This document shows, one piece after another, positions 4,250 through 33,313 of a DNA stretch of 33,313 nt. The notes beneath the pieces are model-generated. The model saw only the letters and a program-made list of their open reading frames with translations. It was not told the origin of the DNA and searched no databases. Source of the stretch: an uncultured Acidimicrobiia bacterium. Lineage in GTDB: Bacteria > Actinomycetota > Acidimicrobiia > Acidimicrobiales > CAIXPF01. The first letter of the stretch is position 1, and each line of letters begins with the position of its first letter. Position numbers and translations under genes: made by a program. The stretch lies in contig CAIXPF010000099.1 in assembly GCA_903921205.1 (NCBI GenBank), forward strand, positions 1-33,313, given 5' to 3'.

Positions 4250-4318
4250 TCTCCCCGGAGACGTTCGTGACCTTAGGGTCGTGCTCCCCTACGTCGTTCC
4301 CCCATCCGGAGGATGCCC

Positions 4319-6637
4319 GTGTTCCGTCGAGGCGTCAGCTTGACGCTGTTGGCCGTGGTGTTGTTGGCGGGCGTGCTGGCCGCGCCCGGAGCCTCGGCGG
4401 CGTCGTCCGTTCCCCCCGGTCAGGCCGTGTCGGGCCAGGCCGCCGTCGCCCGCCTCGGCAGCCGGCTGCCTGCGGTGGCCAAGGCCAACGGCCTCAGTGT
4501 CGCCGAGTTGCAGAACCATCTGCTCACCGACCGGGCGCTGTTCGTCGACGCCAGCGACACGCTGCTCTACGTCGATGCGGCGGTGCCCGCCGGCACCGTG
4601 GCGGCGACCGCGTCGACGGCCACGCCGTTCGACCCGTCGATCCCCACCTCCGACGCCTTGCTGTTGCACAGCAAGCCGGGGGCGAGCCGGGTGATCTTCA
4701 TCGACGTCGACGGCCACACCCTCAGCGGCACGGCGTGGAACAACTCGACCGGCGGCAACTGCTACGCCGAGCCCTACAGCATCGACAGTGACGGCACCAC
4801 CTTCACCGCCGAGGAGCGCAACTCCATCATCAGCATGTGGAAGCGGGTGTCCGACGATTACGCACCCTTCGACGTCGATGTGACCACCGAGGACCCCGGC
4901 TACGCCGCCATCAACCGCTCCGGCAGCGGCGACAACCTCTTCGGGACCCGGGTCATCCTCACCAAGAGCACCTCGAACTGCCCCAACGGCCAGACGCTGT
5001 GGCAGTCGCTGTGCAACTCGGGCTGCGGCGGCATCGCCTACGTCGGTGTCTACGACAACACCGGGTCGGGCCACGACTACTACCAGCCGGCCATCGTGTT
5101 CCAGAACGGCACCGGATCGTCCGGGACCTACCCCAAGTACCCCGCGGAGGCCATGTCCCACGAGGTCGGCCACAACATCGGCCTCAGCCACGACGGCTGC
5201 GTGGCCAGCTGCGGCGGCTACTACCAGGGTCACGGCAGCTGGGCGCCGATCATGGGCGTCGGCTACTACAGGCCCATCGTGCAGTGGAGCAAGGGTGAGT
5301 ACGCCGACGCCAACAACACCCAGAACGACTTCTCCGTCGCCGGGAGCAACGGGCTGCCGCTGCGGGCCGACGACCACGGCGACACCGCCGCCGCCGGTAC
5401 CGTACTGACCGGTACGACGGTGTCCGCAGACGGCGTCATCAGCACCGCCGCCGACGTCGACGCCTTCCGGGTGCAGGCGGGAGCCGGCTCGGCGACCTTC
5501 ACGGTGATCCCCGTGCCGACCAGCCCCAACCTCGACGTGAAGCTCGAGCTGCGTGACGACAGCGGCACGCTCGTCGCCGGCAACGACCCGGCGTCGGGCG
5601 GCAGCGGTGACACCTCGACCGGGATGTCGGCGTCGGTCACGGCCACGCTGACCGCGGGCTGGTACACCCTGCTCGTCGACGGTGTCGGCTACGGCGCCCC
5701 GCTGAACACCGGCTACTCCGACTTCGGCAGCCTCGGCTTCTACCGCCTCAGCGGCACCGTGGCCGCCCCGACCGGGCCGCCGACGGCCCGCATCACCGCC
5801 ACGCCGAGGACCGGTGCCGGGCCGCTGACGGTGGCGTTCAACGGGTCGACCTCGTCGGACCCCGACGGCAGCGCCCTGACCTACGCCTGGGACTTCGGTG
5901 ACGGCGGCACCTCGACGGCCACCAACCCGTCGTACACCTACACCACGGTGGGTACCTACACCGCCACCCTCACGGTGACCGATGCCGACAACCTGACCGG
6001 CACCGCCACGGTGGCCATCACCGTCAATGCGCCCCAGCCGCCGACGGCCCGCATCACCGCCACGCCGACCACCGGTCTCGCCCCGCTGACCGTGGCGTTC
6101 AACGGGTCGACCTCGTCGGACCCCGAGGGCGGCGCCCTGAGCTATGCGTGGGACTTCGGTGACGGCGGTACGTCGACGGCGACCAACCCGTCGTACACGT
6201 ACACCACGCCGGGTACCTACACCGCCACCCTCACCGTGACCGACCCGCAGACCCTCACCGGCACGGCCACCGTGACCATCACGGTGAACGCGCGCATCGA
6301 CGTGTCGGCGATCTCGGCCAGCGGGACCAGGGTGAGCAACTCCAACGTCTCGGCGACGGCGACCGTCACCGTGCGCGACGCGGCCGGCTCGCTGGTCGGC
6401 GGGGCCACGGTGACCGGCACCTGGTACGTCGGCACCAAGGCGGTGGTGAAGAACCGAACCGGCGTGACCGATGCGGGCGGTGTGGCGACGGTGACCTCGG
6501 GCAGCATCAAGGCCTCGAAGGGCAACATCGTCAAGTTCTGCGTGACGAACGTGACCAAGTCCGGCACCACCTGGAACCCGGCCCTGTTCGCCCCGACCAC
6601 CTCGGGCACCGACTGCGCCACCTGGACGGCGACCTGA
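4319..6637 (+). CDS. Secreted PKD-domain zinc metalloprotease (metzincin type)
   Basis: The protein (about 772 aa) has a Sec signal peptide (basic RRG, hydrophobic LTLLAVVLLAGVLAA, Ala-x-Ala site near residue 28). The catalytic domain carries the metzincin signature HEVGHNIGLSH (His281, Glu282, His285, His291), with a probable Met-turn at Met312 (APIMGVGYY). A beta-rich pre-peptidase-C-like region follows, then two PKD domains (about residues 487-660; YAWDFGDGG motifs) and a C-terminal Ig-like region. It probably degrades extracellular protein, with PKD domains aiding substrate or surface binding. GTG at 4319 is preferred to ATG 4313 because GGAGG (4308-4312) directly abuts the ATG but sits 6 bases from the GTG. 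It is monocistronic, ending at the hairpin 6659-6691. The exact peptidase family is not certain. Confidence 0.85.
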   Translation: MFRRGVSLTLLAVVLLAGVLAAPGASAASSVPPGQAVSGQAAVARLGSRLPAVAKANGLSVAELQNHLLTDRALFVDASDTLLYVDAAVPAGTVAATASTATPFDPSIPTSDALLLHSKPGASRVIFIDVDGHTLSGTAWNNSTGGNCYAEPYSIDSDGTTFTAEERNSIISMWKRVSDDYAPFDVDVTTEDPGYAAINRSGSGDNLFGTRVILTKSTSNCPNGQTLWQSLCNSGCGGIAYVGVYDNTGSGHDYYQPAIVFQNGTGSSGTYPKYPAEAMSHEVGHNIGLSHDGCVASCGGYYQGHGSWAPIMGVGYYRPIVQWSKGEYADANNTQNDFSVAGSNGLPLRADDHGDTAAAGTVLTGTTVSADGVISTAADVDAFRVQAGAGSATFTVIPVPTSPNLDVKLELRDDSGTLVAGNDPASGGSGDTSTGMSASVTATLTAGWYTLLVDGVGYGAPLNTGYSDFGSLGFYRLSGTVAAPTGPPTARITATPRTGAGPLTVAFNGSTSSDPDGSALTYAWDFGDGGTSTATNPSYTYTTVGTYTATLTVTDADNLTGTATVAITVNAPQPPTARITATPTTGLAPLTVAFNGSTSSDPEGGALSYAWDFGDGGTSTATNPSYTYTTPGTYTATLTVTDPQTLTGTATVTITVNARIDVSAISASGTRVSNSNVSATATVTVRDAAGSLVGGATVTGTWYVGTKAVVKNRTGVTDAGGVATVTSGSIKASKGNIVKFCVTNVTKSGTTWNPALFAPTTSGTDCATWTAT
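5776..6297 (+). repeat. Tandem 261-bp repeat encoding two PKD domains
   Basis: Two in-frame units of 261 bp (87 codons), beginning at 5776 and 6037, are nearly identical at the DNA level. Both open with the same PTARITATP stretch and both contain YAWDFGDGGTSTATNPSYTYTT. Near identity at synonymous positions indicates recent duplication or ongoing gene conversion. Confidence 0.9.
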
Positions 6638-6691: not shown

Positions 6692-6900
6692 AGCGCGTCC
6701 GGCGCCGGTCGGCGGTCCGGTGCGAGCGCGCCGGGGCGAAGACGTCGGGCCGAAGTGCGGCGTGCGGCGGCCTCGGTCTGGTCGGGCCGATCGTCACCCA
6801 TCGTCGAACACGGCCGGTGGGCCTGCTTCCGCCCGGCGAGACCGGACCGCGACCTACCGCAGGGTACGGAATGGGGGGAGGGTGGGGGCCGGGTCTGTCG

Positions 6901-6906
6901 TACTGT
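6901..6906 (+). promoter_or_regulatory. Putative -10 box of the PAS gene
   Basis: TACTGT fits the actinobacterial TAnnnT -10 consensus. Initiation about 7 bases downstream would give a leader of roughly 50 bases ending at the purine-rich ribosome-binding site AGGAGAAGG (6953-6961). This would exclude the upstream in-frame ATGs at 6817 and 6871. Confidence 0.4.
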
Positions 6907-6963
6907 TCCCGGAACCGCGCCGCGCGCCAGCGTGAACGCGCCCCTACAGCAGAGGAGAAGGAC

Positions 6964-7332
6964 ACGTCCGACAGTGGGGTTCTGGCCGCGACGAAGGTGG
7001 CCGCCGACATCAGTTTCGATTCGGTGATGGTCACCGACGCGCAGGGTGCCATCGTCTACGTCAACGCTGCGTTCGAGACCCTGACCGGGCATTCGCGCGC
7101 CGAGGTCATGGGCCAGAGCGCGAAGTTCCTGCAGGGTGCAGCCACCGACAGCGCCGTGATCGCACGCCTGACCGACGATCTCGCCAACGGCCGGGTGTTC
7201 GAAGGGCGGGCCATCAACTACAAGAAGGACGGGACTCCGTTCGTCATGCACTGGACGGTCGCCCCGGTGCAACCCGCCGACGGCACGTCGGTGACGCATT
7301 ACGTCGCCGTGCAGCGGGTGCTCTCGCAGTAA
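6964..7332 (+). CDS. Single PAS domain protein, LOV-like without the photoactive Cys
   Basis: This short protein (about 110-122 aa) is almost entirely one PAS domain. It has VMVTDAQGAIVYVNAAFETLTG, then GQSAKFLQG where photoactive LOV domains have GRNCRFLQG, and INYKKDGTPF where LOV has NYRKDGTPF. The flavin-adduct cysteine is therefore replaced by alanine, and there is no output domain. It may sense through another ligand or a non-adduct flavin. The start is uncertain: a strong ribosome-binding site (6953-6961) is followed in frame by ACG at 6964, which is not a standard start. The first standard in-frame start after it is GTG 6997 (111 aa). Earlier ATGs (6817, 6871) lie before the likely promoter. 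The fold is sure; start and function are not. Confidence 0.7.
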   Translation, partial: TSDSGVLAATKVAADISFDSVMVTDAQGAIVYVNAAFETLTGHSRAEVMGQSAKFLQGAATDSAVIARLTDDLANGRVFEGRAINYKKDGTPFVMHWTVAPVQPADGTSVTHYVAVQRVLSQ

Positions 7333-7456
7333 CGGCAAGGGGCCCGCTCCGCCGGCAGCGTGGCGGCGCGGGCGTCGGGCCGGCTTCGCTGCGCTGCTGG
7401 GAGCGGCACGGGTCGCCGCCAGCGCGTCCGGCGCCGCCGGTACCGTCGGGTGCGGA

Positions 7457-7462
7457 TAACCT
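7457..7462 (+). promoter_or_regulatory. Putative -10 box of the thiolase gene
   Basis: TAACCT fits TAnnnT and would place the transcript start near 7469, about 44 bases before the GTG at 7513 with its AGGGGAG ribosome-binding site. No clear -35 is seen. Confidence 0.35.
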
Positions 7463-7512
7463 GGTCAACTGAGGAATGCCTGCGGCAGGTCGCGGGCCCG
7501 AGGGGAGTAGCC

Positions 7513-8670
7513 GTGAATCCGAGCATCGTGGGGTGGGCGCACACGCCCTTTGGCCGTTCCGAGGGAACGCTCGAGGATCTGATCGCCACGGTCACGCACG
7601 GCGCGATCGCCGATGCGGGCATCACCGCCGCCGACGTCGACGCCGTGTGGGTCGGCCACTTCAACTCCGGGCTCGTCAACGACGGCTTCCCGGCCTCGCT
7701 GACCCTGCAGGCCGACCAGGGTCTGCGTTGGAAGCCGGCCACCCGGGTCGAGAACGCCTGCGCCTCGGGCTCCGCCGCGCTGTACTCCGCCGCCCAGGCC
7801 ATCCGGGCCGGCGATGCCAAGATCGCTCTCGTCGTCGGCGCCGAGAAGATGACCAGCCGCTCCACCGCCGAGGTGGGTGCCGCCCTCGGCGGCGCCGCCT
7901 ACCAGCGCGAGGAGGCGGGCAAGACCTTCCCGCAGATCTTCGCCATGTACGCCGCGGCCTACTTCGAGGCGTTCGGCGACCACTCGGGCGACCTGGCCCA
8001 GATCGCTGCCAAGAACCACCGCAACGGGGTGAAGAACCCGCTGGCCCACATGCGCAAGGACGTCGGCTTCGACTTCTGCAACACCATCTCCGACAAGAAC
8101 CCGATCGTCGCCGACCCGCTGCGGGTCACCGACTGCTCGCTGATCTCCGACGGTGCTGCGGCGCTCATCCTGGTGGCCGACGACGTCGCCGCCGACTTCG
8201 ACCGGGCCGTGACCTTCCGCTCGATGGCCCACGTGCAGGACATCCTGCCGATGTCGCAGCGCAACCTGCTCGCCTTCGAGGGCCCGGCCCGGGCCTTCGC
8301 CACGGCGTTCCAGGGTGCCGGCATCAGCGTCAAGGACCTCGACTTCGCCGAGGTGCACGACTGCTTCACCATCGCCGAGCTGCTCTGCTACGAGGCAATG
8401 GGCCTCGCCGAGACCGGCAAGGGCTCCAACGTGATCGCCGCCGGAACCCCTTTCCCCGACGGCGACCTGCCGATCAACCTCTCCGGCGGTCTCAAGTCCA
8501 AGGGCCACCCGGTGGGCGCCACCGGCGTGTCGATGCACGTCATGGCGGCCATGCAGCTCACCGGCAACGCCGGCGAGTTCCAGAAGGAAGGCGCCGAGCT
8601 GGGCTGCGTGTTCAACATGGGCGGCTCCGGCGTGGCGAACTACTGCTCCGTGCTCGAACGACGCGGCTGA
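7513..8670 (+). CDS. Thiolase family protein (acetyl-CoA acyltransferase, SCP2-like)
   Basis: The 385-aa protein contains the thiolase nucleophile Cys83 in ENACASGSAAL. The catalytic histidine lies in GHPVGATG (His332) and the C-terminal cysteine in GCVFNMGGSG (Cys365). The usual NEAF loop is replaced by VHDCFT (His282), typical of the SCP-x/thiolase-like-lipid-transfer subgroup. It should cleave or condense 3-ketoacyl-CoA thioesters in the cytoplasm, plausibly in beta-oxidation or side-chain degradation. GTG 7513 was chosen for the AGGGGAG ribosome-binding site and because family homology starts there (NPSIVGWAHTPFG). A terminator follows at 8709. Thiolase fold very sure; substrate unknown. 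Confidence 0.9.
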   Translation: MNPSIVGWAHTPFGRSEGTLEDLIATVTHGAIADAGITAADVDAVWVGHFNSGLVNDGFPASLTLQADQGLRWKPATRVENACASGSAALYSAAQAIRAGDAKIALVVGAEKMTSRSTAEVGAALGGAAYQREEAGKTFPQIFAMYAAAYFEAFGDHSGDLAQIAAKNHRNGVKNPLAHMRKDVGFDFCNTISDKNPIVADPLRVTDCSLISDGAAALILVADDVAADFDRAVTFRSMAHVQDILPMSQRNLLAFEGPARAFATAFQGAGISVKDLDFAEVHDCFTIAELLCYEAMGLAETGKGSNVIAAGTPFPDGDLPINLSGGLKSKGHPVGATGVSMHVMAAMQLTGNAGEFQKEGAELGCVFNMGGSGVANYCSVLERRG

Positions 8671-8708
8671 GCAACACCGAACGCGGCGAGCTCCGCCGCC
8701 GACCTCGC

Positions 8709-8734
8709 AGGCCCAGGTCCTCGGACCTGGGCCT
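8709..8734. terminator. Bidirectional terminator between thiolase and SRPBCC genes
   Basis: A perfect 12-bp inverted repeat (AGGCCCAGGTCC / GGACCTGGGCCT) with a 2-base centre is followed by a T-rich stretch (TCGTCGTTGTTG). It lies between convergent genes ending at 8670 (+) and 8767 (-). Confidence 0.75.
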
Positions 8735-8766
8735 TCGTCGTTGTTGGGCGACGGTTGCCGCGTCCG

Positions 8767-9255
8767 TCACGACATCAGCGCCACCAGTTGGTCGAGCGCG
8801 GCGCCCCAACCCTCGGCGAAGCCCATGGCGGCATGCTGGTCACGAACCTCGGTGCTCGGATGAACGGCGATCGCCCGGTAGTGGGTTCCGCCGTCAGAGG
8901 CAGCCTCGAGCTCGATCCGACCGGTGAAGGCGAGATCGCCTGCGCCGTTCGTGGGCGCGACGGGCCGGAAGCCTTCGCGCATGATGCTGGTGAAGACCAG
9001 CAGGCGGTTCGGCTCGACCTCGAGGTAGCAGCCGGCGTTGGGATGGCGCTCGCCCTCAGGGCTCTCCATGGTGGTGACGAAGCGCCCGCCCGGCCGCACG
9101 TCGAGATCGGCGGCGACGGTCTTCCACGGTGCCGGCGTGAACCACTGCAGCAACAGCGCCGGTTCGGTCCACGCCGCCCAGACCCGTGCGGGTGGGATCG
9201 GGATTGTCCGTTCGAGCACCAGGTCGAGAGCGGGGTCGGGGGTGAAGGGGCTCAT
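8767..9255 (-). CDS. SRPBCC / AHSA1-domain protein
   Basis: The 162-aa protein has the START-like (AHSA1, 'activator of Hsp90 ATPase homologue 1-like') pattern. It begins LVLERTIPIPPARVWAAWTEP, continues LLQWFTPAPWKT and DVRPGGRFVTTMESPEG, and ends with GFAEGWGAALDQLVALM. Bacterial members are single-domain hydrophobic-ligand-binding proteins, often without known function and rarely linked to Hsp90. The full family length (about 150-165 aa) is present. TAGCAT (9262-9267, minus strand) lies 6 bases from the ATG, so the transcript is probably leaderless. It is monocistronic, ending at the terminator 8709-8734. Confidence 0.85.
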   Translation of the reverse strand: MSPFTPDPALDLVLERTIPIPPARVWAAWTEPALLLQWFTPAPWKTVAADLDVRPGGRFVTTMESPEGERHPNAGCYLEVEPNRLLVFTSIMREGFRPVAPTNGAGDLAFTGRIELEAASDGGTHYRAIAVHPSTEVRDQHAAMGFAEGWGAALDQLVALMS

Positions 9256-12206: not shown

Positions 12207-12296
12207 GGTACCGACCGGTCTGGTACCGACCGGTCTGGTACCAACCGGTCCGGTACCGACCGGTCCGGTACCGACCGGTCTGGTACCGCTCGGTTC
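12207..12296. repeat. Six-copy 15-bp tandem repeat
   Basis: Six adjacent 15-bp units follow the consensus GGTACCGACCGGTCT: units 1, 2 and 5 are identical, 3 and 4 vary slightly, and 6 is degenerate. Each unit carries the palindromes GGTACC and ACCGGT, so the tract can fold into alternative hairpins on either strand. It lies between a gene stop (12187) and the next gene (12465). The rest of 12297-12464 shows only a GTGCAC...GTGCAC hairpin and the ribosome-binding site. Confidence 0.95.
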
Positions 12297-21201: not shown

Positions 21202-22458
21202 ATGAACGACACGATGATCGACGTCGAGGACTTCCGGCGCGAGGCCCGGGCCTGGATCGCCGCCAACCTCGAGCCCCGGGAACGGGTGCGAGCGGGCCGG
21301 GTGGTCGGTGAGGTGACCACCCACGAACAGATCGACGAGGCCCGGGCGCTGCAGCGCAAGCTGTTCGACGGCGGCTACGCCGGGATCTCCTATCCGGCCG
21401 AGTACGGCGGGCGGGGCCTCACCCCGGCCCACGAGCAAGCCTTCCGGGAGGAGGCCGCGGGGTATGTCACCCCCGATTTCGGGGTGGTCGGCGTGGTGAC
21501 GATGGGGGCGATCGGCCGTTCCATCGCCGAGCACGCCTCACCGGAGTTCTGCCGCCGCCACATCCCGGCGATCCTGCGCGGCGACGAGATGTGGTGCCAG
21601 TTCTACTCCGAGCCCGAGGCCGGCTCCGACCTCGCCGGCATCCGGACCCGGGCCACCCGCGACGGCGACCGGTGGGTCATCAGCGGCTCGAAGATCTGGT
21701 CGAGCGGCGCGTACCTGGCCGACTGGGCCATGTGCCTGGCCCGTACCGACTGGGATGTTCCCAAGCACCGCGGGCTCACCTGGTTCGCCATCCCCTGCGA
21801 TGCCAAGGGCGTCACCATCCGCCAGATACGCCAGATCAATGGCGGGGCCGAGTTCTGCGAGGAGTTCCTCGACGAGGTCGAGGTCACCGAGGACGACATC
21901 ATCGGTGAGGTCAACCGGGGTTGGGCGGTGACCCAGACCATGCTGGTCTACGAGCGTGGCGCCGGCGAGACCGCGACCCCGACCGAGCCCAGGGCCCTGG
22001 CCCCCGACCTGGTGGCCCTGGCCCGACGCGTCGGTCGCATCGAGGACCCTGCGGCTCGGCAGGCCATCGCCCGGGCTCACATCAACGACTACGCCCAGTT
22101 CCATCTCGGCCGGCGTATCGCCGACCGACTCGAGCACTCGCACAACCCCGACCATGCGGTGGCCGCCTACTCCAAGCTGGCGGCGGGCGTGTACACCCCG
22201 CTGCGGGCCCGGCTCGGTATGGAGATCGGCGGCCCGGCGGCGCTGGCGTGGGCCATCGGCGACGAGGCCGAGGGCCGTCCGGCGTTGGACTACCTCAACG
22301 GACGGCGCATCTCGATCGCCGCCGGCACCAACGAGGTGCAGCGCAACGGCATCGGCGAGCGGGTGCTGGGCCTGCCCCGCGAACCGAGCTTCGACACCAA
22401 CAAGGCGTTCAACGAGGTGCTGCGCAATGCCCGTAACTGGGATGGCAAGGTCGGCTGA
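21202..22458 (+). CDS. Acyl-CoA dehydrogenase, probable alpha-type partner
   Basis: The 418-aa protein carries classic acyl-CoA dehydrogenase motifs. These are FYSEPEAGSDLAGIRTRATRDG, WVISGSKIWSSGAYLADWAMCLART in the beta domain, and a C-terminal ISIAAGTNEVQRNGIGERVLGLPRE that contacts FAD. It pairs with the preceding gene, and together they resemble heterotetrameric ChsE1/ChsE2-like enzymes, which oxidise CoA-linked steroid side chains. Start ATG with GCGAGGGG at a good distance. The stop codon lies inside a 28-bp tandem repeat (22449-22525). Position next to the thioesterase, BVMO and CoA-transferase genes fits catabolism. Confidence 0.88.
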   Translation: MNDTMIDVEDFRREARAWIAANLEPRERVRAGRVVGEVTTHEQIDEARALQRKLFDGGYAGISYPAEYGGRGLTPAHEQAFREEAAGYVTPDFGVVGVVTMGAIGRSIAEHASPEFCRRHIPAILRGDEMWCQFYSEPEAGSDLAGIRTRATRDGDRWVISGSKIWSSGAYLADWAMCLARTDWDVPKHRGLTWFAIPCDAKGVTIRQIRQINGGAEFCEEFLDEVEVTEDDIIGEVNRGWAVTQTMLVYERGAGETATPTEPRALAPDLVALARRVGRIEDPAARQAIARAHINDYAQFHLGRRIADRLEHSHNPDHAVAAYSKLAAGVYTPLRARLGMEIGGPAALAWAIGDEAEGRPALDYLNGRRISIAAGTNEVQRNGIGERVLGLPREPSFDTNKAFNEVLRNARNWDGKVG

Positions 22459-22525
22459 GGCCGGCCGGGTGGGCGTGGTCGGCTGAGGCCGGCCGGGTGG
22501 GCGTGGTCGGCTGAGGCCGGCCGGG
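22449..22525 (+). repeat. 28-bp tandem repeat spanning the dehydrogenase stop codon
   Basis: Two full copies and a 21-base partial copy of a 28-bp unit beginning GGTCGGCTGAGGCCGGCC; each contains VG-stop (GTCGGCTGA). The gene's own last codons and stop form the first unit. Confidence 0.95.
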
Positions 22526-27091: not shown

Positions 27092-28045
27092 ATGAGTGGT
27101 GGCCTGATCGGGCTGTTGGACGACGTGGCGGCGCTGGCCAAGCTCGCGGCGTCCTCCATCGACGACGTGGGCGCCGCGGCCGGCCGTGCCGGGGCCAAGG
27201 CGGCCGGGGTGGTGGTCGACGACACCGCGGTCACGCCGACCTACGTGCACGGTCTCGCCGCCGACCGGGAGCTGCCGATCATCCGGCGCATCGCCCTGGG
27301 CTCGCTGCGCAACAAGCTGCTGTTCATCCTGCCGGCGGCGTTGGTGCTCAGCGAGTTCCTGCCGGTCCTGGTCGAGATCATCCTGATGGTCGGCGGGGCG
27401 TATCTCTGCTTCGAGGGCGCCGAGAAGTTGCGGCACCGGCTCCACCGGGGAGACGGCGCCGAGCCGGACCATACCGTTGAGAATGGTGTCGATCAGGAGG
27501 GGCGGGTCGTGGCCGGCGCCATCCGCACCGACTTCATCCTGTCGGCGGAGATCATGGTGATCGCCCTCAAGGAGGTCATCGACGAGGGCTTCGTGTCCCG
27601 GGCGGTGATCCTGGTGGTGGTGGCGCTGATGATCACCGTGATCGTCTACGGGCTCGTCGGTCTCATCGTGAAGATGGACGATCTCGGCTTGCGACTCGCC
27701 ACGTCGGGCACCGGCGCCACGCGCTCGGTCGGCCGGGCGTTGGTCGGCGGGATGCCGAAGCTGCTGGCGGGGCTGTCCGCGGTCGGCACCGCCGCCATGC
27801 TGTGGGTGGGTGGCCACATCCTGCTCGTCGGCACCGACGAGCTGGGTTGGCACGGTCCCTATGCGGCCGTTCACGACGTCGAGGATGTTCTGCACCACGT
27901 CGCAGTCCTCGGCGGGGTGCTCGGCTGGATGTTCAACACGCTGGTGTCAGCGACATTGGGCGTGGCGGTCGGCTTCGCCGTGCTGGCCGTGGTGTCCCGA
28001 CTGGCCGGGTCCGGCGTCGCCCGGGTCGGAGGCCGCCGCCGGTGA
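27092..28045 (+). CDS. DUF808 / YedI-family inner membrane protein
   Basis: The 317-aa protein matches DUF808 (E. coli YedI-like). The N-terminus is GGLIGLLDDVAALAKLAASSIDDVGAAAGRAGAKAAGVVVDDTAVTP-like (residues 3-47), then GLAADRELPIIRRIALGSLRNK before the first helices. Membrane segments are predicted at about residues 73-108, 147-200 and 213-312 (several helices). Function is unknown; it sits in the inner membrane. Full length, with a very strong ribosome-binding site. It converges with the SnoaL-like gene, leaving only 2 bases between the two stop codons, with no separate terminator visible. Confidence 0.9.
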   Translation: MSGGLIGLLDDVAALAKLAASSIDDVGAAAGRAGAKAAGVVVDDTAVTPTYVHGLAADRELPIIRRIALGSLRNKLLFILPAALVLSEFLPVLVEIILMVGGAYLCFEGAEKLRHRLHRGDGAEPDHTVENGVDQEGRVVAGAIRTDFILSAEIMVIALKEVIDEGFVSRAVILVVVALMITVIVYGLVGLIVKMDDLGLRLATSGTGATRSVGRALVGGMPKLLAGLSAVGTAAMLWVGGHILLVGTDELGWHGPYAAVHDVEDVLHHVAVLGGVLGWMFNTLVSATLGVAVGFAVLAVVSRLAGSGVARVGGRRR

Positions 28046-28047
28046 AC

Positions 28048-28494
28048 TCAGCGGCTGGGAACCCGCGGGTTGGAGGAGTCGAACACGATTGGCGTGGCAA
28101 GCTCGGCGTGTAGCCACACCCGGTAGCGGCTGATCTTGCCGTCGACGAGCTCGAAGAAGCTGAACGCCGTGCCGGAGATCGGCCCGTTGGTCGGGGTCTG
28201 GTTGAGCCAGGGACCGATGTGGGTGCCGGTGAAGGACCACCACGCCATGACCTCGTCGTCGTTGGCCACCACCCGCTCGACGGTGACGGCGAGGTCGCCG
28301 ACGTTGCGGCGGAATCCCACCACGTGGGCCACCAGCCCGTCGCGTCCGGGCGGCCCGCCGAACGCCTGGTTGGCCTCGTCGACCATGTCCGGCCGGGCGA
28401 ACTGCTCGATGAGCTCGAGTCGGCCGTTGCCGACGACCTCGGTGAGATAGGTCTGGATGAGTTGCCCAGGGGTCAGCGTCACGGCGCCGATCAT
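28048..28494 (-). CDS. SnoaL/NTF2-like (ester cyclase type) protein
   Basis: The protein (148 aa from ATG 28494) has the NTF2-like SnoaL pattern. A helix TPGQLIQTYLTEVVGNGRLELIEQF comes first, then a loop with RPDMVDE, GLVAHVVGFRRNVGDLAVTVERVVANDDEVMAWWSFTGTHIGPW and a final strand SFFELVDGKISRYRVW. These proteins are small cone-shaped hydrolases, isomerases or binding proteins. The start is uncertain: ATG 28494 lacks a clear ribosome-binding site, and the GTG at 28482, 7 bases after a cATGAT box, could be a leaderless start. It converges with the DUF808 gene. Fold confident; activity unknown. Confidence 0.8.
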   Translation of the reverse strand: MIGAVTLTPGQLIQTYLTEVVGNGRLELIEQFARPDMVDEANQAFGGPPGRDGLVAHVVGFRRNVGDLAVTVERVVANDDEVMAWWSFTGTHIGPWLNQTPTNGPISGTAFSFFELVDGKISRYRVWLHAELATPIVFDSSNPRVPSR

Positions 28495-28583
28495 GGCCCG
28501 CCGCGCGTGCCGTGACCAAGGCGGGTCGATCGGTCCGGCGCGGCGATCCAGTAGGTGTTGATCTCCCGTAGATTCGCGGACCA

Positions 28584-28599
28584 TACGTTCAGGGAACGT
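28584..28599 (+). promoter_or_regulatory. Promoter with overlapping palindromic operator of the pgsBC operon
   Basis: TACGTT (28584-28589) is a candidate -10 box; a second, TAGATT, lies at 28569-28574. The perfect palindrome ACGTTC-AGG-GAACGT (28585-28599) overlaps the -10 region, a typical place for a repressor site. The leader runs to the GGCGGAGG ribosome-binding site before 28659. Confidence 0.4.
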
Positions 28600-28658
28600 G
28601 AGGGGCCGAGGGAGGGGACCCTCGAGTGGTCTCGGACCACGGAAGGCGGAGGGTTCAC

Positions 28659-29900
28659 ATGTCGGTTCTCCTGCTGGCGGCCGGCATTGCGCTGGCCGTC
28701 CTCGGATGGTGGGTGGTGGCAGGGTGGCGACACCGGTGTCGCGTCGAGCAGTTGCGCTGGCGGGTCCACGTCAACGGCATACGCGGCAAGTCGACGGTGA
28801 CCCGGCTCATCGCCGGATCGCTGCGCGAGGCCGGGATCGTGACCATCGGCAAGTCGACGGGAACGGCCGCTGCGGTGATCAACCGTGCCGGTGACGACGA
28901 GCCCATCGATCGGCACGGGCCGGCGACGATCCTCGAACAGCTGCGGGTCGTGCGCGCCTACGTCACGACCGGGGTCGAGGCGCTCGTCGTGGAATGCATG
29001 GCGCTCAAACCCGAGTACCAGCGGGCGAGCGAGCGACAGATCGTGCGGTCCACCATCGGCGTGCTCACCAACGTCCGCCACGACCACCAGGACGTGATGG
29101 GCGAGACCCTGGTCGAGATCGCCACCTCCCTGCTCGAGACGTGCCCGCGCAACGGGGTGCTGGTGACGGCCGAACAGAACCTCCAGGTGCTCGAGGTGGT
29201 GTACCGGGTGGCCGGACGCAACGGGACCCGGGTCGTCGTCGTCGATCCCGAGGAGGTGACCGACGAGGAGGTCGGGCGCTTCGACTTCGTGTCGTTCAAG
29301 GAGAACGTCGCCATCGCCCTGGCGGTTGCCGCGCTGATCGGGGTCGGCCGCGCCACGGCGATGGACGGGATGGTCGCTGCGAACCCCGATCCCGGGGTGC
29401 TGCGGATCTTCGACGTCTACCTGGGCTCGACCCGGGTGACCTGGGCGAACCTGTTCGCGGTGAACGACCGGGAGTCGATGATCACCGCCATGGACCGGCT
29501 CACCGGCTACCGCACTGCGGACACGGTGACGATCGGCATCCTCAACAACCGGCTCGACCGTGAGCGACGGGCCATCCAGTTCGCCGACATCGCCGTGAAC
29601 GACCTCGACTTCGACCGTCTGGTCACCTTCGGGGCCTACGAGAAGCTGGTCACCAACCGGCTGCTGGCCTGCGGTTACCGCAACCCGATCCTCAACCTCG
29701 GCGACGATCGACGGCCCACGGCCGCCGAGATGATCGAGGCCATCGTCACCGACCAACACGTGGCGCACGTGCTGCTGGTCGGCTTCGTCAACATCCACAC
29801 CGATCAGGCCGAGCTGTTGATGCACCATCTCGACGACCCGGCGCTCCGGGCGCCGCCGATCATCGACCTCACCGCCGTCGCAGAGACCGTGTCCCTGTGA
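28659..29900 (+). CDS. pgsB: Poly-gamma-glutamate synthase PgsB/CapB
   Basis: The 413-aa protein has an N-terminal membrane helix (about residues 2-22), then the PgsB/CapB-specific P-loop HVNGIRGKSTVTRLIAG (Lys44-Ser45 bind ATP). Conserved segments VVECMALKPEYQ and TNVRHDHQDVMGETL of the Mur-ligase-related ATP-grasp-free ligase fold follow. In Bacillus it is the catalytic amide ligase that polymerises glutamate at the membrane with PgsC. The length is close to Bacillus PgsB (about 393 aa). ATG 28659 was chosen for its GGCGGAGG ribosome-binding site; the 11 extra upstream codons are non-conserved. The stop overlaps the next GTG as GTGA. No CapA/PgsA gene is in the window. Very clear family match; polymer identity inferred. 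Confidence 0.93.
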   Translation: MSVLLLAAGIALAVLGWWVVAGWRHRCRVEQLRWRVHVNGIRGKSTVTRLIAGSLREAGIVTIGKSTGTAAAVINRAGDDEPIDRHGPATILEQLRVVRAYVTTGVEALVVECMALKPEYQRASERQIVRSTIGVLTNVRHDHQDVMGETLVEIATSLLETCPRNGVLVTAEQNLQVLEVVYRVAGRNGTRVVVVDPEEVTDEEVGRFDFVSFKENVAIALAVAALIGVGRATAMDGMVAANPDPGVLRIFDVYLGSTRVTWANLFAVNDRESMITAMDRLTGYRTADTVTIGILNNRLDRERRAIQFADIAVNDLDFDRLVTFGAYEKLVTNRLLACGYRNPILNLGDDRRPTAAEMIEAIVTDQHVAHVLLVGFVNIHTDQAELLMHHLDDPALRAPPIIDLTAVAETVSL

Positions 29901-31018
29901 TCGCTCTCCTGAGTGGTGCCGGGTCTCTCCTGGGTGGCGCCGGCAACGTGGAGTTGGTGCGACTGGCCTTCGTGGTGGGCGTCGCGGTGTCCCTGGTGTT
30001 CTACGAACGCTGGAACCTCACCACCGGCAGCGTCGGCGAGCTCGGCTACGTGGCGGCGCTGTTCTTCCGTCCGGCGTCCCTGGTGGCGACCTTCGTCGTG
30101 GCGTCGGCATGTCACCTGCTCGTCAACCGTGCGGTGGCATCACGGGTCCTGATCTACGGGCGCAACAAGTTCGCCCTGCTGGCCGTCACCTCGGCGGCGC
30201 TGATCGTGCTCGCCCGCTTCGCCCTGATGCCGTTCGACACGCTGTCGGAGAGGGGCTCGCTGATCGGGTCCGGCGGGCTCATCGTGCCCGCCCTCATCGC
30301 TCATCACATGGGGCGCCAGGGAGTGGTCAGGACGACCCGGACGGTTCTGCTGGCTGCATCGCTGGTGGTCGGGGTCGTGCTCGTCGCGGGGCTGGCACTC
30401 GACGCGGGGATCCCGGTGCCGACCGTGGCGACCGGCGAGCTGGCCTTCGAGCAGTGGCTGGTGCCGCTCGCGGTGCTGTTCAGCGCCGTCACCGCATGGG
30501 GCCTGCAGGCAGCGTTCGGGCTGCGGGCGGGAGGGTTCGTCGGCGGTGCGTACGTGGCGTTGCTCTCCTCGAACGCTCGGTCGGTGTGCGCCGTGCTGCT
30601 GGTGGCGTTGGCCACCTATGCCGTCGTCGTGCACCTCGTCGGCCGGTTCGTGATCCTCTTCGGTCGGCGGAAGTTCGCAGCGATGCTGTTGTGCGGGGCG
30701 TTGTTCGGTTGGTGGTCGGTGACCGGGGGCGCACAGGTCGTCTCGGCGGGGCCCTTCGAGTTCGGTGCGCTCGCCGGGTTCGCCGTTCTGCCGATGTTCC
30801 TGCCGGCCCTCATCGCCAACGACATGGAACGCGTCGGGGTGCAGCGGACACTTGCCGGGCTCGGATTGTCGAGCCTCGTCGTGCTCGGCGGCCTCCGGCT
30901 GATCGAGCTGCTCGGCTCCCTGCCGGCGGCCGAGCTGCTGGTTGTGGTGCTCGCGGCGATCGCGCTGGGCGCCACCTCGGCGCAGGCCCTCAGATGGAAC
31001 CGGAGCGTGTCGGTGTGA
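29897..31018 (+). CDS. pgsC: Double-length PgsC/CapC: two tandem PgsC units
   Basis: The 373-aa integral membrane protein is about 2.5 times the length of Bacillus PgsC (149 aa) and contains the PgsC pattern twice. The first unit (about 20-165) has SLVFYERWNLTTGSVGELGYVA, LIYGRNKFALLA and LIVPALIAHHMGRQGVVRT. The second (about 190-340) has AGGFVGGAYVALL, VILFGRRKFAAML and FLPALIANDMERVGVQRTL. PgsC is the membrane partner of PgsB in poly-gamma-glutamate synthesis and export. GTG 29897 overlaps the pgsB stop (GTGA); its own stop overlaps the next gene likewise. A fusion of two PgsC copies may let one polypeptide form what is normally a PgsC dimer or oligomer (inference). Confidence 0.88.
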   Translation: MIALLSGAGSLLGGAGNVELVRLAFVVGVAVSLVFYERWNLTTGSVGELGYVAALFFRPASLVATFVVASACHLLVNRAVASRVLIYGRNKFALLAVTSAALIVLARFALMPFDTLSERGSLIGSGGLIVPALIAHHMGRQGVVRTTRTVLLAASLVVGVVLVAGLALDAGIPVPTVATGELAFEQWLVPLAVLFSAVTAWGLQAAFGLRAGGFVGGAYVALLSSNARSVCAVLLVALATYAVVVHLVGRFVILFGRRKFAAMLLCGALFGWWSVTGGAQVVSAGPFEFGALAGFAVLPMFLPALIANDMERVGVQRTLAGLGLSSLVVLGGLRLIELLGSLPAAELLVVVLAAIALGATSAQALRWNRSVSV

Positions 31019-31941
31019 ATCGTTCGAGGGTGCTCGCGGTGCTTGCGGTGTCGAGCGTGCTCTCGCTGGGGTCGGGGTGTCAGGACCCCGTGCCGCCGGC
31101 GGGCCGGGCCGTGTCCGATGTGGTGGCCCGCGAGGTGACGCTCATGGTGCGCGAAGGTACCGATGGGTATGTCGCGCCGTCCGACGCCGAGCTCTCGTCG
31201 ATCGGACCGCTGGCCGAGGCGTTGCTGGCCGGCCGGGGTGCCGAGGCCGGGTCGAGGGCCGCGGCACTCGGCTACGAGCTGGTCAACGGGATCGACGTCG
31301 ACGGCCGGCGGTTCACCGTGGCGCGTGAACCCGAGGGGAACCGGCGGGGCTGGGCGACGATGGTCGTCGCGCAATCGGGTGGTCGGACGGTGGTGGAGGT
31401 CCCCCATCCCTGGGCGGACCGTGAGACCGAGACCGTCGGGTTGGCGCTGTTCCGCTCGCTCGGTGCCCGGGTGCTGCTGATCGGCGGCGCCCACAGCGCC
31501 GCCAACGCCGACGGTTCGGCCGATCCGGTCCATCAGGTGGGTTCGGCCTTCCATGCGGCCCACGTGGCGATGGCGACGCAGGGCCTGAGCGCCGTGCAGT
31601 TGCAGGGGTTCTCGACACGTCGCCACCCCGCGCTCGCCGCCGACGTGATGGTGTCCGCTGCCCAACCGGTGCCGACCCCGATCGCCGAGTCGGTCGCCGC
31701 AGCACTGCGGTCCTCGGGTCTCGACGTGTGCCTCTTCGGGCCGGCACGCTGTGACGACCTCGGCGGCAGGACCAATGAACAGGGCCGGGCCTCCATTGCC
31801 GCCGGTACGGAGTTCGTGATCGTCGAGTTCTCGACCAGGCTCCGCCAGCGACCCGACTGGGTCTCCTCGGTCGTCGGGCCGGTCACGGCTGCGGTCGCTT
31901 CGGGTGGGCCGGCGTTCACCGGTGCCCCGACGCCCGGCTAG
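31015..31941 (+). CDS. Predicted exported (lipo)protein of the pgsBC operon
   Basis: The 308-aa protein starts VNRSRVLAVLAVSSVLSLGSGCQ, an export signal with a loose lipobox at Cys22. No family is certain. The central part has VEVPHPWADRETETVG (His131, Asp135, Glu137, Glu139), GGAHSAANADG (His160), HQVGSAFHAAH and VQLQGFS. The end, TNEQGRASIAAGTEFVIVEFSTRLRQ, faintly recalls the layout of phage-type gamma-PGA hydrolases, with a conserved-looking Glu271, but the usual His is Gln197. It may trim, release or bind the polymer. GTG 31015 overlaps the pgsC stop as GTGA and has GGAG upstream, so it is co-translated. A longer open frame further upstream only shadows pgsC. Confidence 0.75.
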   Translation: MNRSRVLAVLAVSSVLSLGSGCQDPVPPAGRAVSDVVAREVTLMVREGTDGYVAPSDAELSSIGPLAEALLAGRGAEAGSRAAALGYELVNGIDVDGRRFTVAREPEGNRRGWATMVVAQSGGRTVVEVPHPWADRETETVGLALFRSLGARVLLIGGAHSAANADGSADPVHQVGSAFHAAHVAMATQGLSAVQLQGFSTRRHPALAADVMVSAAQPVPTPIAESVAAALRSSGLDVCLFGPARCDDLGGRTNEQGRASIAAGTEFVIVEFSTRLRQRPDWVSSVVGPVTAAVASGGPAFTGAPTPG

Positions 31942-31944
31942 CAT
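31939..31944 (+). promoter_or_regulatory. -10 box of the MBL gene, overlapping the preceding stop codon
   Basis: TAGCAT uses the TAG stop codon of the previous gene (31939-31941) as its first half and ends 8 bases before ATG 31953. The MBL gene is probably transcribed (nearly) leaderless on its own, in addition to read-through. Confidence 0.45.
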
Positions 31945-31952
31945 TTCGGACC

Positions 31953-32867
31953 ATGTCGAGCGTGACCCCTTTTCTGGACAGCGATCTGCGGCTCGGCCGC
32001 GCGGTGGCCCTCATCGGTGCCGAGGAAGGCAAGTACCCGGCCGGAAACTCCTTGCTGGTGGTGGGTGCGGACACCTCGGTGCTGATCGACCCGTCGGTGT
32101 CGGTGTTCGACCGCGGCGGCGCGCCGGCACCGGTGGACCGGATCCTGCTCAGCCACGCCCATGAGGACCACATGGCCGGTATCGGGGTGTTCCCCGACGC
32201 TCCGGTGCACGCCCATCACGAGGACCTGCTCGGCGTGCGATCGCTCGACGGCCTGATGGAGATGTACGGGATGACGCCCGAGCACGACGCCATCTTCCGC
32301 GACGTGGTGCTCGACGAGTTCCACTTCACCGAGCGGCCCGATGCCTGCGGGTTCGCCGACGGCGACCGGTTCGATCTCGGCGGTGGCCTGCGCGTCGAGG
32401 TCGTGCACCTGCCGGGCCATACCAGGGGGCATTGCGGCTTCCTGGTCGAACCCGACGGGGTGTTCTTCGTGGCCGACGTCGATCTGTCGAGCTTCGGGCC
32501 GTACTACGGCGATCACTGGTCCGACCTCGAGGACTTCGAGGCCGCGCTCGCCCGTTGCCGGGAGATCGATGCCCGGTGGTACGCGACCTTCCATCACAAG
32601 GGCATCGTCGAGGGCCGGGCCGAGTTCCTGACCGCGCTCGATGCGTTCGAGGCGGTCATCGCCCGGCGCGAGCGGCGGCTGCTCGACTTCCTCGCCGAAC
32701 CGCGGGACTTCCCCGAGATCGTGGCCCATCGTCTGGTCTACCGGCCGGGCGTCGACATCATGTGGGCCGACGAGACGGAGACACGTACCGCCCAGCGGCA
32801 TCTGGTCCGCCTGCTGCGTGACGGGCAGGTGCACGAGATCGAGCCCGGACGCTACCGAGCCGCCTGA
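31953..32867 (+). CDS. MBL-fold metallo-hydrolase
   Basis: The 304-aa protein contains HAHEDH (His68, His70, Asp72, His73), LPGHTRGH (His156), FVADVD (Asp175) and a late TFHHKG (His214/His215), so all metal-ligand positions of a beta-lactamase-fold hydrolase are present. It has no signal peptide. The overall layout (early DSDLRLGRAVALIGAEEGKYPAGNSLLV) is a soluble hydrolase of unspecified substrate. It follows the pgsBC-lipoprotein operon by 11 bases but has its own probable promoter (31939-31944), so linkage to the polymer system is only a possibility. Distinct from the MBL protein at 17008. Confidence 0.88.
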   Translation: MSSVTPFLDSDLRLGRAVALIGAEEGKYPAGNSLLVVGADTSVLIDPSVSVFDRGGAPAPVDRILLSHAHEDHMAGIGVFPDAPVHAHHEDLLGVRSLDGLMEMYGMTPEHDAIFRDVVLDEFHFTERPDACGFADGDRFDLGGGLRVEVVHLPGHTRGHCGFLVEPDGVFFVADVDLSSFGPYYGDHWSDLEDFEAALARCREIDARWYATFHHKGIVEGRAEFLTALDAFEAVIARRERRLLDFLAEPRDFPEIVAHRLVYRPGVDIMWADETETRTAQRHLVRLLRDGQVHEIEPGRYRAA

Positions 32868-32934
32868 CCGGGTCGGGCCGGGTCTTGCCGGACTCCGCGT
32901 CCGGGTGCCCGGGTGCCCGGGTGACGGTCTCGGT

Positions 32935-32980
32935 GCCGGCCCCGGCGGGCGATTCGCCCGTCGAGGGGCCCGGGGCCGGC
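32935..32980 (+). terminator. Terminator-like stem with nested hairpin
   Basis: An outer 11-bp stem (GCCGGCCCCGG / CCGGGGCCGGC) encloses an inner CGGGCG-ATT-CGCCCG hairpin. It lies 67 bases after the MBL stop. Just before it, 32901-32923 holds a short CCGGGTGC tandem repeat (three near copies). The following 32981-33313 holds no convincing gene. Confidence 0.55.
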
Positions 32981-32992
32981 CGCTGCGACCTT

Positions 32993-33109
32993 GTTTGTAG
33001 CGAAATGGTTCGAGTGAGGCGGTGCCTCCCCTTGTGGCATCGCGAATGACCTGGTCAGAGCGTTGCCGGAAATGGGCTGGCGGGCCCGGCGAACCACTTG
33101 GCTACAAAC
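32993..33109. repeat. Imperfect inverted repeat of 20 bp around a 77-bp spacer
   Basis: The left arm at 32993-33012 (GTTTGTAGC...TGGTTCG) and the right arm at 33090-33109 are reverse complements with two mismatches. The region is less GC-rich than its surroundings and has a small internal hairpin (GAGGC-GGT-GCCTC). It could be a miniature transposable element or a regulatory inverted repeat. Confidence 0.7.
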
Positions 33110-33197
33110 CTGGTGAAAAGCCGTGTCGAACGGGCGACAGCGGCTTACTCGACAGGGCCACCCGCCGGCACACCCTGCCCCGGTGCTCGGCGCCTTG

Positions 33198-33260
33198 GCG
33201 AACGCACCGACGCGAACGCACCGACGCGAACGCACCGACGCGAACGCACCGACGCGAACA
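33198..33260. repeat. 14-bp tandem array (four copies plus partial)
   Basis: Four exact tandem copies of GCGAACGCACCGAC (33198-33253) and a decayed partial fifth (GCGAACA). There are no spacers, so it is not a CRISPR array. It lies in a gene-free stretch near the window end. Confidence 0.95.
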
Positions 33261-33313
33261 TACCAAGTGGAATGGACGCGGTCGGGAACGTGGGACGAGA
33301 CTGGCCGGGACCC

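Follow-up and report, generated by a model that had tools for sequence, protein, structure and literature searches.

A 33,313-nucleotide stretch of DNA from an uncultured Acidimicrobiia bacterium (GCA_903921205.1, contig CAIXPF010000099.1; here called the window, its own genome being labelled G000) carries a three-gene operon consisting of pgsB, a double-length pgsC and a gene for an exported protein to which we gave the working name P3. We hold with moderate confidence that this is a poly-gamma-glutamate (gamma-PGA)-type synthase operon without CapA, that the P3 family is PghP/YndL-like, and that the P3 copy encoded here more probably binds or retains the polymer than cuts it. The genes comprise pgsB (28659-29900, +), encoding a poly-gamma-glutamate synthase, a Mur-ligase-like amide ligase of 413 residues; pgsC (29897-31018, +), encoding a 373-residue membrane protein with two CapC/PgsC repeats; and the P3 gene (31015-31941, +), encoding 308 residues. 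All three frames are open and run in the same direction. The GTGA overlaps described in the original prediction were read at both junctions, where the pgsB stop meets the pgsC start (29897-29900, +) and the pgsC stop meets the P3 start (31015-31018, +).

PgsB scored 339.2 bits against the equivalog model TIGR04012 (cut-off 222.7; expectation value (E) 2.5e-101), which places it in that family, and it also matches the Mur-ligase middle domain PF08245. It shows no private deviation at the 52 columns that are invariant in 28 other PgsB rows, as do 21 of the 29 rows in total, and in the PgsB tree it groups with Acidimicrobiia (99/98 support) on its own fairly long branch (0.69). PgsC belongs to TIGR04011, with 121.3 bits over two stretches (cut-off 96.45), and scored 112.6 bits against PF14102 (cut-off 27), again over two stretches. 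In the genome search the two halves taken separately reached 68 and 65 bits, both under the TIGR04011 cut-off, and they align with one another at 34.7% over the local alignment (E 3e-8). The predicted doubling of PgsC is therefore borne out by the two family stretches and the mutual similarity of the halves. An AlphaFold model of this PgsC is all helical, with a predicted local distance difference test score (pLDDT) of 72; Foldseek gave no match to it at E 0.001 or better, and a second look with VIA-align gave nothing above Z 4.0. One feature of PgsC counts against our interpretation: the otherwise constant VVPGY motif is altered (V48E, P49L), a warning that the N-terminal half may work differently. 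Double PgsC frames in Acidimicrobiia stretches L033-L035, L039 and L044 are 535-605 residues long and bear an extra C-terminal tail of ~150-230 residues, and on two Acidimicrobiia contigs (L062:3121-7914 and L064:4344-9128) a frame of ~1,595 residues lies divergent to pgsB.

The original prediction was of an anionic-polymer synthase locus without CapA, and the absence proved to extend beyond the operon: a search with PF09587 (CapA/PgsA) gave 0 matches in the whole genome, which is 100% complete by the tool's estimate, and was positive in 7 of 14 control genomes. None was found in the same-genus genome G001. This absence does not extend to the wider group. Among 296 genomes of the class, PgsB exceeded its cut-off in 11, counting the present one, and 9 of the other 10 hold PF09587 somewhere, G127 being without it. 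The expectation that capA would not regularly accompany homologous loci stood only in part, as a CapA gene lies inside the stretch in 4 of 18 Acidimicrobiia pgsB stretches (L036, L039, L056 and L065; some stretches end just past pgsC, and the set leaves out L037 and L038, both short contigs, as well as the broken locus of G001), while 9 of 10 other actinobacterial stretches show the order pgsB-pgsC-capA-gamma-glutamyltransferase (GGT), L173 showing neither CapA nor GGT. The CapA and GGT profiles used for these scans were built in this analysis from few sequences, that for GGT from one (source L093). An operon without CapA is common in the Acidimicrobiia; a genome without CapA is unusual there.

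In the Bacillus pgs/cap gene order the exported protein is the last gene. The operon studied here resembles PgsBCA/CapBCA(D) in having overlapping, co-directional genes for PgsB and PgsC/CapC with an exported protein last, and differs from it in that PgsC is double, CapA/PgsA is lacking from operon and genome alike, and the last protein is P3. Unlike CapBCA(D), it also has no GGT/CapD gene; one GGT gene lies elsewhere in the genome (G000:C95), and GGT genes were found elsewhere in 9 of 10 genomes examined. Third genes vary among pgs loci, being an NlpC/P60 gene at a Streptomyces plasmid locus and a GGT gene on plasmid pCgly1 of Corynebacterium glyciniphilum (L093). At the latter locus, as here, pgsB overlaps a double pgsC and no CapA was found in the stretch, the difference being GGT in place of P3. 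A missing CapA does not forbid polymer synthesis, because, according to one report, B. subtilis with pgsBC and lacking its genomic pgsBCA still makes L-rich PGA (26 g/L, D/L 5/95, versus 75/25 with pgsBCA; PMC6029982). In the mechanism that we propose, PgsB, an ATP-dependent amide ligase, and the double membrane PgsC would, with no CapA, synthesise a gamma-linked polymer of glutamate and export it, and P3, translated in step with them, would be exported and probably lipid-anchored.

P3 itself has no NCBIfam or Pfam match. Searches with P3 and its family in Pfam, NCBIfam, PHROGs and the sequences of the PDB returned either no match or matches at chance level (best E 0.073 for PDB, 0.057 for PHROGs and 0.016 for Pfam), the Pfam families listed for the 14 P3 members being matched by single members at chance level. 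TIGR04332 (PgsW) was rejected as the identity of P3: neither P3 nor the proteins P0004 and P0005 matched it, hhalign gave P 0.19, and no TIGR04332 gene was found in G000 or G001, whereas two positive controls matched. A PgsW-type gene is the third gene in L049-L051, where it matches TIGR04332 at 284-318 bits, and in Cetobacterium. It resembles the P3 gene in its position after pgsB and pgsC and in encoding an N-terminal hydrophobic segment, but P3 shows no detectable homology to its product. The P3 gene has a coding-like codon-position G+C of 0.74/0.58/0.86, a weaker signal than that of its neighbours (second position 0.42-0.49), and a simple gene caller skipped it and called antisense frames there. 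It is nevertheless a real protein, since relatives occur elsewhere.

These relatives are few. A tblastn search of plasmids found them in six records, from Streptomyces clavuligerus (three), S. finlayi, Chroococcidiopsis thermalis and Corynebacterium ureicelerivorans; none was found in phage records, and a viral-contig scan returned one relative, the same Corynebacterium element, listed in IMG/VR. A P3 profile search of 396 Actinomycetota genomes, which scored at most five first-look candidates per genome, found the protein in 8, and PgsB (E 1e-40 or better) was present in 21 of 396 genomes drawn likewise. Seven of the eight P3 genomes hold PgsB (Fisher 3.1e-9, or 5.2e-8 without G000; the test takes no account of common descent, and one genus supplies three of the eight and another two); the exception, G465, is 87% complete, with P3 at a contig start and no PgsB. 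PgsB also lies within the fetched stretch at 10 of 13 P3 loci, the remaining three being L073 (the Corynebacterium element), L086 (a contig of 3.9 kb) and L089 (the locus of G465 at a contig edge). P3 thus belongs to a small family that has no name and is linked to pgsB. At 6 of the 10 P3-pgsB loci CapA is adjacent or near (L070, L071, L084, L085, L090 and L091), and in G456 the genes run pgsB-pgsC-capA-P3 with overlaps. CapA was not found in the stretch at the other four, namely the window, L072, L087 and L088; the L088 stretch covers just 3.2 kb, and PF09587 is present elsewhere in its genome, G487. The one-sequence GGT profile detected no GGT in 11 P3 stretches and matched only L093, its own source.

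The closest architecture is that of plasmid pCHRO.01 of Chroococcidiopsis thermalis PCC 7203 (L072), which has the same pgsB-pgsC-P3 order and a 333-residue PgsC that matches TIGR04011 in two stretches, at a sub-threshold 46 bits; no CapA was found in its stretch, in an examination of the plasmid alone. Unlike the P3 gene of the trio, that of L072 does not overlap pgsC, and its product keeps His197 and His269; downstream lie an HlyD-type gene and, further on, a PF00149-type phosphoesterase gene. Among 59 genomes searched, P3 was found in G000 and G001 only, and the search of 396 Actinomycetota genomes added no further member of the class. Acquisition of P3 by transfer is plausible, because PgsB groups with the Acidimicrobiia while within the class P3 is seen only in these two of the genomes searched. 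In G650, two P3 genes on opposite strands converge tail to tail next to pgsB, pgsC and a HAMP-type gene that lies between those two (L087:6003-7985), and in G487 the P3 frame runs on from a truncated PgsC start (L088:1467-3188), which is a PgsC-P3 fusion or an assembly artefact. In the open-access literature, no paper on a P3-type gene was found among those listed, and none was found on poly-gamma-glutamate together with Acidimicrobi-.

The third protein had been described as exported and of unknown family. The family indeed has no name; it shows, in addition to its tie to pgsB, a weak but specific kinship to the PghP/YndL gamma-PGA hydrolases (PF05908). Alignment of 14 P3 rows, some of them partial or excised from longer frames, gave 12 invariant and 14 nearly invariant positions, including His131, Asp135, His197 and Glu271 (residue numbers are those of the P3 copy in the window). 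Passages of the structural literature give the zinc ligands of PghL as His41, Glu46 and His102, with Glu165 and His77 nearby, and report that alanine changes at His40, Glu45, His78, His103 and Glu165 harm PghP activity (PMC6506827). In the profile alignment the P3 family shares with these enzymes the order His, Asp/Glu, His, Glu and an HGF...L.G..N...E(L)..R pattern, and we suggest that His131, Asp135, His197 and Glu271 match the zinc and catalytic residues of PghL, His160 perhaps matching another. In hhalign the P3 family aligned to 13 PF05908 members (the wrong-frame row L127 having been left out) with a score of 35.8 and P 2.8e-4, and with 34.8 and P 4.2e-4 when the P3 row of the trio was removed. 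The controls scored lower, at 26.8 for the best of 200 column shuffles, 17.6 for the reversed profile and 12.4-21.0 for five other families. The local alignment sets HGF on HGF and pairs the final E-L...R, and a forced global alignment pairs PHP-VSDRETE with PHGGGIEPGTSE. P3 differs from PghP/YndL in that it has no PF05908 match, is longer, is exported and is encoded with pgsB, and the copy studied here has no second zinc His.

Several observations weigh against this kinship. PF05908 was chosen after the P3 motifs had been read, so that the P-value does not come from a blind search; the hhalign probability is only 41%, and the local alignment spans the C-terminal half. The pairing of His131 with the first His ligand of zinc, and of Asp135 with its Glu ligand, is obtained only in the forced global alignment, whose score is low (16.0) and whose pairing is weak. 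The PF05908 model matched none of the 14 P3 members at a maximum E of 10, a search in which the HMMER filters drop most matches above 0.1. His160 is missing in two other members (L089 and L090), and AlphaFold, run on P3 with a two-row alignment, gave a pLDDT of 40.5, too poor for the fold to be read. In the Streptomyces loci, moreover, P3 is divergent from capA and is not last in the operon.

Support of another kind comes from Corynebacterium ureicelerivorans, in which a 738-residue protein with no Pfam match contains a P3 domain in its central part; its gene belongs to the tail region of a plasmid resembling a phage and lies a few genes behind the tail tape-measure gene (L073:4879-7095; the same as L095:3945-6191, where the start is longer). 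PghP is described as a zinc enzyme akin to carboxypeptidase A and is thought to let phages reach capsulated cells (PMC4497714), and a tail-region P3 domain fits such a capsule-access role; the 738-residue protein is a possible capsule depolymerase. PF05908 genes proper also occur in this group. One, with the full His/Glu/His/Glu motif, lies in the same genome as the trio (G000:C81:17446-17898; L136), and others are present in 8 other genomes of the order, including genomes without a strong PgsB match (e.g. G011 and G065).

The P3 copy encoded in the window departs from its family at conserved residues, among them a putative zinc ligand. His131 (31405-31407, +), which putatively corresponds to the first zinc-binding His in PghL/PghP, is kept, Asp135 (31417-31419, +), the putative counterpart of the zinc Glu, is Asp in all 14 rows, and Glu271 (31825-31827, +), the putative counterpart of the catalytic Glu, is also kept; the pairings of His131 and Asp135 come from the forced global alignment. 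By contrast, residue 197, the candidate second zinc ligand, is Gln (CAG, 31603-31605, +) and residue 269 is Ile (ATC, 31819-31821, +), each being His in the 13 other rows. Of 18 positions at which the other rows do not vary (counting columns occupied in 11 or more of those rows), this P3 differs at five (G114A, A157G, R161S, H197Q and H269I) versus 0-3 for the other 13 rows, a count inflated by its place among the more distant rows. The G001 P3 remnant reads LLGF at the place of His197, so the His is missing in both species. Because the second zinc His and another conserved His are lost, this P3 may bind rather than cut the polymer.

Its N-terminus carries a basic-hydrophobic signal ending in GSGC. 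Reading the N-termini by eye against the lipobox rule, we found a Cys at the lipobox place in 5 of the 11 rows that include an N-terminus (GSGC here, LVGC in P0004, LTAC in L070, LAGC in L084 and LAAC in L090); the other six have a hydrophobic segment without Cys, which weighs against anchoring as a family trait. A lipid anchor is therefore likely for the P3 of the trio and is not general in the family.

How P3 would act was considered against a different possibility, namely that it is unrelated to hydrolases and is a new surface protein that takes the place of CapA in polymer elongation or anchoring. The absence of CapA from the genome, its not being found in four of the ten P3-pgsB stretches and the lost second zinc His all agree with such a replacement. 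We nevertheless consider it unlikely, since at the remaining six loci a CapA gene is next to P3 or close by, so that P3 is not simply its replacement, and the specific profile link to PF05908 and the P3 domain in the phage-like tail region both speak against it. We favour the interpretation that the P3 family descends from, or shares a fold with, the PghP/YndL zinc hydrolases. P3 would then occupy the slot held in other pgs operons by a gamma-glutamyltransferase (CapD-type), and family members would most likely trim or release surface polymer. The P3 of the trio would more probably bind or retain polymer, or act weakly, than cut it, and is perhaps only a polymer-binding anchor; cutting may come from the PF05908 gene on G000:C81 and the GGT on G000:C95.

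A second alternative is that the trio is a remnant of a pathway decaying in the genus and further gone in the sister species. Collinearity between G001 and the window extends from 20954, the end of the fetched stretch, to 33171, with nucleotide identity of ~92% in the left flank (a block that runs into the first 85 pgsB codons) and 88-90% downstream. Inside the trio, identity is 85%, 79% and 76% in three stretches, and the G001 locus is a multi-deletion pseudogene cluster within conserved flanks (L069, G001:C10:16000-32000, ~6820-8890, -; same record as L045): residues 86-151 of PgsB are missing, pgsC is fragmented and P3 is mostly gone. That so close a species has lost the system counts against our interpretation. 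It agrees with decay, as do the frame changes in G001, the lack of CapA in both genomes, the five private deviations of P3 and the lack of a PgsC or P3 match in the genus members G002 (88% complete) and G003 (97%). The ratio of nonsynonymous to synonymous substitution rates (dN/dS) between the two species, 0.35-0.41 in two pgsB pieces and 0.37-0.52 in two pgsC pieces, could be taken in the same sense, although it mixes a constrained and a free lineage.

Assigning the changes to lineages argues otherwise. Of 118 PgsB columns with conservation of >=90% across 17 further rows from Acidimicrobiia, none is changed in the window alone and 13 are changed in G001 alone, with 10 changed alike in both and 95 in neither; at 54 PgsC columns the window alone is changed at 1 and G001 alone at 3, with 11 changed alike, 5 differently and 34 unchanged. 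PgsB has thus been kept under constraint in the lineage of the window since its split from G001, and, with all three frames open, we regard decay of the present trio as improbable. A last alternative, that PgsB and PgsC make some other amide-linked product, such as another amino-acid polymer or a wall modification, is invited by the PF08245 match, a substrate that cannot be read from sequence and a double, diverged PgsC, but it is rather improbable given that PgsB passes the equivalog cut-off by 116 bits and that the genome holds an intact-motif PF05908 gene, even though such genes also occur without a strong PgsB.

A metallo-beta-lactamase-fold gene begins 11 bases downstream of the trio (31953-32867) and was set aside as a fourth operon gene, because in G001, whose trio is wrecked, it is open and ~90% identical. 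Upstream, a SnoaL-like gene (28048-28584, -) and a DUF808 gene (27092-28045) are part of the region that is conserved in G001. A search of 28000-33313 gave neither a sigma-70-like promoter nor a terminator-like site, which says little for a high-GC actinobacterium. Elsewhere in the window, a 774-residue protein (4313-6637) with an M12-type metallopeptidase match contains PKD repeats encoded by two 261-base tandem copies (5776-6293; 87% matches), and short tandem arrays lie at 12207-12288 (15 bases x 5.5, 94%), at 22449-22525 across the end of an acyl-CoA dehydrogenase gene (28 bases x 2.8, 100%) and at 33198-33259 (14 bases x 4.4, 100%).

What these data add to the original prediction is that P3 appears to represent a pgs-linked, PghP-like family of which the present copy is without a key residue. 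The family is a concrete candidate for a new group of gamma-PGA hydrolases in Actinomycetota and on a cyanobacterial plasmid, missed by the Pfam and NCBIfam copies used here, and its candidate active-site residues can be named. A bolder proposal, which we regard as speculative and doubtful, is that P3 founds a new operon-embedded gamma-PGA hydrolase family and that in this genus it has become a zinc-less pseudo-hydrolase that anchors the polymer to the cell surface, letting a CapA-less synthase build a capsule; if true, a degrading enzyme would have been recruited as a polymer anchor. The operon shows that a pgs locus can be kept under selection in a genome without CapA, which bears on the question of CapA's role, and its intact and wrecked states in two close species offer a natural comparison.

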